DNA from: Halalkalicoccus sp. CGA53
GTDB taxonomy: Archaea; Halobacteriota; Halobacteria; Halobacteriales; Halalkalicoccaceae
Assembly: GCF_036429475.1 (NCBI RefSeq)
Contig: NZ_CP144125.1
Coordinates: 2,356,001-2,420,000 of the forward strand
Direction: 5' to 3'
DNA: 64,000 bases
The notes under the pieces are model-generated. The model ran no database searches. It was given only the letters and a program-made list of their open reading frames with translations, and was not told where the DNA came from. Each line of letters starts with the position of its first letter. The first letter of the stretch is position 1. The position numbers and the translations under genes were made by a program. This document shows positions 17,199-52,228 of the stretch, piece by piece.

Positions 17199-18005
17199 AT
17201 GACGATCGACCTCCCACGACTCGGGTTCGGGACGTACAAGCTCGAGGACCCCGAAGAGTGCGTCGAGAGCGTCGAACGCGCGATCGACGTCGGCTACCGA
17301 CATATCGACACCGCACAGGGCTACGAGAACGAGGCGTTCGTCGGCGACGCGATCGAGAACGCCGCCGTCCCCCGCGAGGAGCTCTTCCTCGCCACCAAGC
17401 TCTCGACCGGAAACCTCGCCTACGAGGACGTTCTCGAGAGCGCCGAGGCGAGCAGGAAGAAACTCGGCGTCGAGACGATCGACCTGCTCTACGTCCACTG
17501 GCCGCTGAACACGTACGACCCCGACGAGACGCTCTCGGCGCTCTCCGAACTCCGGGAGCGAGGGGTGATCGAACACGTGGGGCTATCGAACTTCCGGATC
17601 GACCAGCTACAGGTCGCTCGGCGGGAACTCGACGAACCGATCTTCGCCCACCAGGTCGAGTGTCATCCGCTGCTCCCACAGGAGCGACTACGCGAGTTCG
17701 CCGCCGAGGACGGCCACCACCTCGTCGCCTACTCGCCGATCGCGAGGGGGGAGCTGTTTTCGGTGCCTGAAATCAACGACGTGGCCGAGCGCCACGACGC
17801 GACCGCGGCGCAGGTCGCCCTCGCGTGGGCGATCGAGAAAGGGATCTACCCGATCCCGAAGGCCCGTGGAGGGCACATAGCGGAGAACTACCGGGCGCTC
17901 GCGCTCGCGGAGGAACTCGAGCCCGGAGAGATCGAGAAGATCGACGCGCTGGAAGAGCGACGCCGGCTGGTCGACTTCGAGGAGGCCCCGTGGAACGCGG
18001 CGTGA
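17199..18005 (+). CDS. Aldo/keto reductase
   Basis: The 268-residue protein is a classical AKR TIM barrel of the 2,5-diketogluconate reductase-like type. The catalytic tetrad is complete: Asp37 and Tyr42 (HIDTAQGYENE), Lys67 (FLATKLS) and His100 (LLYVHWPL). The NADPH-binding C-terminal block IPKARGGHIAENY is present. It should reduce aldehydes or ketones with NADPH in the cytoplasm. The ATG at 17199 is preferred over an upstream start because the core begins R-L-G-F-G-T. Its TGA stop coincides with the end of an 85-bp repeat element, and the HAD gene starts at the element's other end. Confidence 0.85.
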   Translation: MTIDLPRLGFGTYKLEDPEECVESVERAIDVGYRHIDTAQGYENEAFVGDAIENAAVPREELFLATKLSTGNLAYEDVLESAEASRKKLGVETIDLLYVHWPLNTYDPDETLSALSELRERGVIEHVGLSNFRIDQLQVARRELDEPIFAHQVECHPLLPQERLREFAAEDGHHLVAYSPIARGELFSVPEINDVAERHDATAAQVALAWAIEKGIYPIPKARGGHIAENYRALALAEELEPGEIEKIDALEERRRLVDFEEAPWNAA

Positions 18006-18088
18006 TACGGACGGCTGTGGCTGTCTACCGGAGCGACCGCTGCGTGGTTCGGGGTCGTTCCGGAAACGACTCACGGCGGTCCGTATGA
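18003..18088 (+). repeat. 85-bp terminal-inverted-repeat element, copy A
   Basis: The proximal end is TGATACGGACGGCTGT and the distal end is GTCCGTATGA; the ends are imperfect inverted repeats of about 16 bp. The first TGA is the stop codon of the aldo/keto reductase, and the ATG in the distal end is the start codon of the HAD phosphatase. The element thus forms the entire intergenic spacer. The interior is not strongly conserved with the other copies apart from a TACCGG motif. Confidence 0.75.
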
Positions 18089-18870
18089 GGGGTGCGGTGA
18101 TCGACGTCGACGGGACGGTCGTCCGGGGAACGAGCGTGGTCCCCGGCGCGATCGAGGCCGTCTCGCGGCTCCGCGAGGCGGGGATCGACCCGCTGTTCGT
18201 CTCGAACAACCCGATCGAGACGCGGGCGGCGTACGCCGAGCGGCTCCGCCGCCTCGGCTTCGACGTCGCCTCCGAGGACCTGCTCACCGCCGGCTCGATT
18301 ACGGCGTCGAACCTCGCCAGCGAACACCCGGAGGGGACGATCTACGTGATCGGCGAGTCGGGACTTCGGACACAGCTCTCGGAGGAGGGTCTCACGCTCA
18401 CCGAGGAGCCGTCGCGTGCGGCGGTCCTCGTCGCCTCGATCGATCGGGAGTTCTCCTACGACACCCTCACCGAATCGCTCGTCGCACTCTCCGACGAGGG
18501 GACGCTGTTCGTGGGGACCGACCCCGACGTGACGATCCCGGTCGGGGAGAACCGCGTCGTTCCCGGGTCGGGAGCGATCGTGCGGGCGATCGCCGGCGTG
18601 AGCGGTCGCGAGCCGGATCGGATGATGGGAAAGCCCTCGGAGACGACGATAGAGGCGGTGAGAGCGGCGATCGGAGTTCCTTTAGAGGACTGTCTCGTGA
18701 TCGGCGATCGTCTCGACACCGACCTCGCGATGGGCGAGCGGGCGGGGATGCAGAGCGTGCTCGTGCGGACCGGCGTGACCGACGACCGGGCGATCGCGCG
18801 CTCTCCGGTCGAGCCGACTCACGTCATCGACTCGATCGCGGAGATCGAGGACGTGCTGACGAAGCTCTAG
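18085..18870 (+). CDS. HAD-IIA family sugar phosphatase
   Basis: The 261-residue protein is a NagD-like (HAD subfamily IIA) phosphatase. Motif I is DVDGTVVRG at residues 8-16, motif II is LFVSNNP, the cap domain lies at about 75-180, and GKPSETTIEA and GDRLDTDLAMG provide motifs III and IV. It should dephosphorylate small phosphorylated metabolites (sugar phosphates, nucleotides or phosphoglycolate) in the cytoplasm. The start codon lies inside the distal end of repeat copy A, which may place its translation under control of that structure. It ends by overlapping the convergent YdjM-like gene by four bases. Confidence 0.85.
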   Translation: MRGAVIDVDGTVVRGTSVVPGAIEAVSRLREAGIDPLFVSNNPIETRAAYAERLRRLGFDVASEDLLTAGSITASNLASEHPEGTIYVIGESGLRTQLSEEGLTLTEEPSRAAVLVASIDREFSYDTLTESLVALSDEGTLFVGTDPDVTIPVGENRVVPGSGAIVRAIAGVSGREPDRMMGKPSETTIEAVRAAIGVPLEDCLVIGDRLDTDLAMGERAGMQSVLVRTGVTDDRAIARSPVEPTHVIDSIAEIEDVLTKL

Positions 18871-40574: not shown

Positions 40575-40677
40575 CGGTACGGACGGCACGGGTCGACACG
40601 CGAGCGCTCCCGAGAGCTCCGGGCTCCGGTGGAAGCGAGCGATCGTATCGGATCGAGTCGGCCACGGCGGCCGCTCA
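40575..40677 (-). repeat. Possible decayed copy of the 85-bp element (copy E)
   Basis: Read on the minus strand it starts TGAGCGGCCGCCGTG, where the TGA is the stop codon of the MATE gene and GGCCGCCGTG resembles the proximal end of the 85-bp elements with TA lost. The other end contains TACGGACGG. It is longer (103 bp) and weakly matched, so it may be coincidence. Confidence 0.3.
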
Positions 40678-46119: not shown

Positions 46120-46203
46120 TCGTACGAACTGCTGTCCCTGTGTAGCCCTCGGGTCGAGAGGTGGGTACCAGGCTGAACGGTGGACGTTCAGCAGTCCGTA
46201 TCA
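46120..46203 (-). repeat. 85-bp terminal-inverted-repeat element, copy D
   Basis: On the minus strand it starts TGATACGGACTGCTGAA at the VOC gene's stop codon (TGA, 46201-46203) and ends ACAGCAGTTCGTACGA. It is 84 bp long. Its distal end is the most diverged of the four copies. An internal TGGTACCC matches copy B. With copy B it brackets the HxlR/DoxX/VOC module in inverted orientation. Confidence 0.7.
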
Positions 46204-47365: not shown

Positions 47366-47683
47366 ATGTCATCGCACGCGGAGGAGGAAGGCGAGTTCTG
47401 TCCGGTGATCGACTCCGTCGAGCAGATCGGCTCGCAGTGGCGACTGATCGTGCTCCACGACCTCCAGGACGGCGAGAAGCGGTTCAACGAGCTCAAACGG
47501 TCGACCGGCGCGAGTTCGCGCACGCTCTCGCGCGTGCTGGAGGACCTCCAGGAGACGGGCTTCGTCGAGCGTCGCGTCGAGACCGACTCGCCGATCGCGA
47601 CCTACTACGAGCTCACCGAGAAGGGCTTCTCGCTCTGTCCGGTCTTCGACGAGATCGTCGCCTGGGCCGACGAGTGGCTCTGA
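47366..47683 (+). CDS. HxlR-type (DUF24) transcriptional regulator with two cysteines
   Basis: The 105-residue protein has the winged helix of the HxlR/MarR-like DUF24 family: CPVIDSVEQIGSQWRLIVLHDLQDGEKRFNELKRSTGASSRTLSRVLEDLQETGFVERRV. Cys12 sits at the position of the conserved redox Cys of Bacillus YodB/HypR; a second, Cys91 (F-S-L-C-P), is near the C-terminus as in YodB. I infer a thiol-based sensor of quinones or electrophiles. It is divergent from DoxX/VOC. Its TGA stop is the first codon of repeat copy B. Confidence 0.83.
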   Translation: MSSHAEEEGEFCPVIDSVEQIGSQWRLIVLHDLQDGEKRFNELKRSTGASSRTLSRVLEDLQETGFVERRVETDSPIATYYELTEKGFSLCPVFDEIVAWADEWL

Positions 47684-47767
47684 TACGGACTGCCCTCCGT
47701 CCGTACCGGTGGGACCGGTACCCGTCGTTCGGTCCCAGCGGTAAAGAAGTCACAGCAGTCCGTTTGA
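47681..47767 (+). repeat. 85-bp terminal-inverted-repeat element, copy B
   Basis: It starts TGATACGGACTGC at the TGA stop codon of the HxlR gene and ends ACAGCAGTCCGTTTGA, 10 bp before the GTG of the DUF429 gene. Length 87 bp. The interior contains CCGTACCGG and GGTACCC palindromic motifs shared with copies C and D. Confidence 0.72.
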
Positions 47768-52144: not shown

Positions 52145-52228
52145 TCATACGGACGGTCGAAGCCCCGTACCGGCGACCGCCAGTACGGGCCGACGATCAC
52201 CGGTACCCAGTTACAGCCGTCCGTATCA
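52145..52228 (-). repeat. 85-bp terminal-inverted-repeat element, copy C
   Basis: On the minus strand it starts TGATACGGACGGCTGTAA, where the TGA (52226-52228) is the stop codon of the acyl-CoA dehydrogenase gene, and ends GACCGTCCGTATGA. It is 84 bp long, between the convergent HalX and acyl-CoA dehydrogenase genes. Its proximal end matches copy A, its interior shows GGTACC and CCGTAC motifs. Confidence 0.74.

Follow-up and report, generated by a model that had tools for sequence, protein, structure and literature searches.

Why should a short hairpin repeat start directly after the last base of a gene? The question is raised by a window of 64,000 nt, the whole stretch of DNA that was analysed (Halalkalicoccus sp. 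CGA53, NZ_CP144125.1, positions 2,356,001-2,420,000, forward strand). An unfiltered search of the window with a covariance model trained on 27 copies recovers exactly four copies of the repeat, A, B, C, and D, with E values of 4e-11 to 1e-18. The copies and the triplets on both sides of them are given below in coordinates of the window.

18003-18005, plus strand: copy A, proximal triplet TGA, the stop codon of an aldo/keto reductase gene and the target-duplication triplet
18006-18085, plus strand: copy A, hairpin element, TACGGACGGCTGT...GGCGGTCCGTA (covariance-model match E 4e-17; fold z -6.3)
18086-18088, plus strand: copy A, distal duplicate TGA
46120-46122, minus strand: copy D, distal triplet, CGA on the minus strand
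46123-46200, minus strand: copy D, hairpin element (covariance-model match E 4e-11)
46201-46203, minus strand: copy D, proximal triplet TGA, the stop codon of a VOC/glyoxalase-family gene
47681-47683, plus strand: copy B, proximal TGA, the stop codon of an HxlR gene
47684-47764, plus strand: copy B, hairpin element (covariance-model match E 1e-18)
47765-47767, plus strand: copy B, distal duplicate TGA
52145-52147, minus strand: copy C, distal duplicate, TGA on the minus strand
52148-52225, minus strand: copy C, hairpin element (covariance-model match E 2e-16; fold z -5.3)
52226-52228, minus strand: copy C, proximal triplet TGA, the stop codon of an acyl-CoA dehydrogenase gene

The names of the genes beside the four copies are backed by Pfam, and the position of the stop at the edge of each copy was determined by a frame walk and by a separate gene caller. 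Both bear out, with single-base precision, the original prediction that the first three bases beside copies A, B, C, and D are a TGA stop codon. A decayed fifth copy proposed at 40675 finds no support, the best covariance-model score there (E = 2.8, 40619-40672) being at chance level. At copy A, the last base of the element and the following TG form an ATG (18085-18087) that starts the ORF of a HAD hydrolase (18085-18870). As reconstructed, the site before insertion read GTGA, a stop-start overlap, and the new ATG of the HAD hydrolase was made by the insertion. TAG is the stop codon of 23 of the 66 genes called in the window, an unusually high share.

Across the genome (4.04 Mb), the covariance model finds at least 81 distinct copies; 150 candidates were scored, so the number of copies is a minimum value. 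Among the copies listed, 56 of 81 have an in-frame stop exactly at the element edge according to the gene caller, a simple program based on codon usage that was made for this analysis, and 59 of 81 according to either method, while TGA or TAA is present at one edge in 73 of 81. Stops account for 14% of the non-coding T-N-A triplets at the same loci, and against this chance level the placement of 56 of 81 copies gives a binomial p of about 6e-29. The copies are thus non-random relative to stops genome-wide, as the original prediction had supposed. Its stronger claim, that the element always lies at a stop, holds for the four clear copies in the window but not for the genome, where 56-59 of the 81 abut an in-frame stop. 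The stop rule is strong, not absolute. In addition, none of the 56 stops is TAG, although TAG makes up 22% of stops (p 2e-6); therefore, the machinery reads T-R-A, not the stop signal. Beyond this genome, matches to the element occur in 50 of 147 genomes sampled from the same order.

The element is composed of a single hairpin of 75-81 bp with inverted ends TACGGAC...GTCCGTA. The terminal inverted repeats match over 13-14 bp, and a 14-bp outer stem is followed by an internal loop and an inner stem. Family-wide, the ends are TA...TA and the stems are variable but matching. In 35 copies from about 30 genomes, 94.5% of the outer-stem pairs are kept and 11 of the 14 pairs change on both sides; in the covariation analysis of the stem, 13 of 20 pairs show changes in both bases, a level reached by none of 500 shuffles. 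Either a hairpin or a pair of ends recognised by one protein would show such covariation, which alone is no proof of RNA function. No match to Rfam at the gathering score is found in the window. The internal asymmetry faces either way with respect to the stop (36 versus 20 among the 56 stop-site copies). A double-stranded transposon should show this and a fixed 3'-UTR motif should not, and it follows that the TGA is no constant end of the element.

The flanking TGA (or TAA) is a 3-bp target duplication that lies outside the element. In this genome, the flanks are TGA/TGA or TGA/CGA in 49 of the 56 stop-site copies, and the one copy at a TAA stop is flanked by TAA/TAA. In G108, a complete genome from another genus whose copies are mostly near-identical, the 3-bp flanks are identical in 22 of the 22 copies listed: one has TAA/TAA, the rest TGA/TGA or its complement. 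Because a TAA target leaves TAA at either edge, the triplet is not part of the element, and the suggestion that the stop belongs to the sequence of a 3'-UTR element is wrong in that form. Empty sites are in accordance. In G108, a second hairpin family interrupts three copies of the first family and thereby gives the empty site directly (filled, TTGTAA[TACTG..CAGTA]TAAGTC; intact, TTGTAAGTC). An orthologous empty site reads GGAGTGAGACGA in genome G089 and GGAGTGA[element]CGAGACGA in this genome.

The second family (TACTGCCGGCTGTAACAAACTG..., about 77 bp; loci L294, L295, L277, L299, L302, and L303 in G108) makes the same T-R-A duplication and enters TAA within first-family copies. At L277 (G108:C1:2696142-2696383), two elements stand in tandem after one stop with a shared TGA between them, as if the duplicated triplet had been struck a second time. 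The distal TGA has changed to CGA in 24 of the 56 stop-site copies (for example C2:3571170 and C2:3159334, and copy D in the window). This change is far commoner than any other in the distal triplet and is independent of the orientation of the gene or the element. An empty site indicates that TGA is ancestral to CGA. The change abolishes an ATG start and an A-T pair beside the stop.

The reading we favour, at a probability of roughly 0.7, is that a MITE-like hairpin inserts at T-R-A and duplicates it, and that the bias towards stops comes from the survival of harmless insertions. The element would be a non-coding, hairpin-shaped mini-transposon of about 80 bp, and insertion would proceed by a 3-bp staggered cut at T-R-A, mostly TGA and rarely TAA, with duplication of the triplet. 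When the target is a stop codon, the proximal duplicate would still act as the stop, leaving the protein unaltered and the insertion harmless. Insertions elsewhere in a gene-dense genome would mostly be lost, and the survivors would accumulate at TGA stops. For transposases in general, a 3-bp duplication implies a DDE-like cut; judging from the duplication, the element is probably mobilised by a DDE-type transposase acting in trans.

The 3' ends of orthologous genes bear on whether the stop was there before the element or was created by it, both of which had been proposed. Copy C is missing from the orthologous site in nine of nine relatives compared, and in relatives without it the acyl-CoA dehydrogenase stops at the same codon, with TGA, TAG, or TAA. 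Copy B is shared with G089 at the orthologous site and missing in G081, and the HxlR protein of a congener without it ends at the same codon, with a TAG stop. The proteins beside copies B and C are therefore of the same length without the element, and three further loci of this genome (346011, 2209760, and 3571170) also keep the terminal codon of their empty-site relatives, indicating that the stop pre-existed and was restored by the duplication. The alternative that insertion made new stop codons and shortened the proteins has no support at copies B and C, and it would need a T-R-A duplicated at a non-stop site to be in frame by chance. The observations in its favour come from the other two copies: at copy D, which has CGA as its distal triplet, the protein of relatives is longer by a few codons, and at copy A, the aldo/keto reductase is short of a few C-terminal residues (a short indel) in comparison with family-level relatives. 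We regard this alternative as extremely improbable. It is also very unlikely that the element has been recruited for a 3'-UTR function, as a terminator or mRNA stabiliser, and is retained beside stops by selection. The element does lie directly 3' of the stop and forms a strong hairpin in all four copies tested (z -5.2 to -8.8), but the target duplication alone accounts for the single-base placement, and other congeners have empty orthologous sites. Copy A and copy B each have a counterpart at the orthologous position in one congener and are thus older than that split. In five of six comparisons with congeners, shared copies have diverged beyond their flanks, with gapped identities of 50-70% against 80-94% for the flanks; the exception is copy B, at 91%. 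Since most of the old shared copies diverge faster than their surroundings, an acquired function is unlikely.

A further possibility, which we consider unlikely though less so than the previous two, is that the mobilising machinery itself prefers gene ends or stops beyond T-R-A, for example through features of DNA or transcription at 3' ends. In favour of survivorship, young copies are at stops less often than older ones. Nearest-neighbour identity is 0.97 for the copies of G108, which are young, and 0.83 for the older copies of this genome; 9 of 30 and 56 of 81 of the copies listed, respectively, are at stops (p 4e-4). Genome G063 (identity 0.86; six of nine at stops) is consistent with this age trend in a small sample, whereas G145 (0.92; four of four) and G073 (0.89; one of seven), also small samples, are not ordered by age. 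A test that pooled G073 with G108 was discarded, as these two were not grouped by measured age. Within this genome, by contrast, stop and non-stop copies show no difference in copy score (p 0.36). The stop fraction of the young copies of G108 nonetheless exceeds the 8% null (p 5e-4), so survivorship may not explain everything. In the zone from the stop to 60 bp downstream in this genome, stops make up 48% of T-N-A triplets, yet 56 of about 69 copies are exactly at the stop (p about 1e-8), and fewer copies than expected lie just past it. Against a preference for stops, however, the stop as such goes unrecognised, given the lack of insertions at TAG; the second family, of the same type, enters TAA inside other copies, away from stops; and some 70% of the young copies in G108 lie away from called stops. 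It seems doubtful to us that a haloarchaeal transposition system, with a putative transposase working in trans on the hairpins, actively targets stops or gene ends beyond T-R-A; if it did, such targeting would be a built-in way of inserting without damage. On the whole, and short of full proof, the data fit a model in which the element enters T-R-A and harmful insertions are then lost, and we infer that survivorship is the main cause of the stop bias.

An autonomous partner or mobilising transposase was not found in the genomes examined for families PF01609, PF13359, and PF01797. Almost every matching end in G108 has its partner a short distance away, and those without a partner read as truncated copies. 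A 1491-bp span at locus L337 of G108, with matching ends and TCA flanks, mimicked a full-length transposon and made an ISH8-like IS a candidate partner. Comparison with three other copies indicates that it is a second-family hairpin copy with a 1403-bp ISH8-like IS (L337 1071-2473) inside it. Other PF01609 transposases in G108, G145, G063, G024, and this genome have ends and duplications that differ from those of the element. DDE_Tnp_4 (PF13359) is absent in eight genomes, and Y1 transposase (PF01797) has no match in this genome, G024, or G035, all of which carry copies. Nine matches in viral contigs of 32-49% G+C, none with a partner end, were judged to be chance, and most pattern matches outside haloarchaea look like chance as well.

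On this reading, a simple rule explains the regularity: once TGA is duplicated, hitting a stop codon carries no cost for the host. The element offers a natural case of how mobile elements become harmless and a clean measure of survivorship versus targeting. The family is widespread in Halobacteriales, with recent activity in at least one genome; having no known transposase, it points to a further mobilising enzyme. For annotation, copies can be used to fix gene ends and to spot spurious starts made by the distal ATGA. The family is apparently undescribed: a literature search returned no stop-codon-targeted haloarchaeal element, and a search for the end sequences found them printed in none of the papers searched on such an element, with one chance match.

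Among known systems, MITEs, Haloquadratum SMRs, and mycobacterial MIRUs come closest to the element. The PATEs of IS200/IS605 lack the inverted ends and target duplication that the element has. The RAYT-associated REPs are palindromic, extragenic, and often beside gene ends (PMC3733652). The element likewise is palindromic, extragenic, and often adjoins gene ends. REPs are mobilised by REP-associated Y1 transposases and have a size of 20-40; in contrast, the element is 75-81 bp long, has a 3-bp duplication, and occurs in three genomes (this genome, G024, and G035) in which no Y1 transposase is found. The element resembles MITEs in being short, non-coding, and multi-copy, with terminal inverted repeats and a target duplication, and is too short for a transposase. 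However, haloarchaeal MITEs are defined by ends related to a known transposon, and no autonomous transposon sharing the ends of the element was found in the genomes examined. The element also differs from MITEs in being one whole hairpin with a T-R-A target and a strong stop-codon bias. The SMRs of Haloquadratum walsbyi are 80-110 bp long, have inverted ends unrelated to known transposons, reportedly make no target duplication, and insert into other mobile elements, their mode of mobilisation being unknown (PMC3119063). The element is like them in size, prominent inverted ends, and insertion into other mobile elements, but makes a 3-bp target duplication. The MIRUs of mycobacteria are small mobile repeats at gene boundaries whose insertion spares the neighbouring gene (PMC12548453). 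The element shares this logic of inserting without harm, copy A even rebuilding both a stop and a downstream start. MIRUs carry a small ORF that is coupled to the gene downstream; a gene start lies at the distal edge of the element in 3 of the 56 stop-site copies. The MIRU target, reportedly described by Supply in 1997, is said to be DTGA at overlaps of stop and start codons. The element also has TGA as a target.
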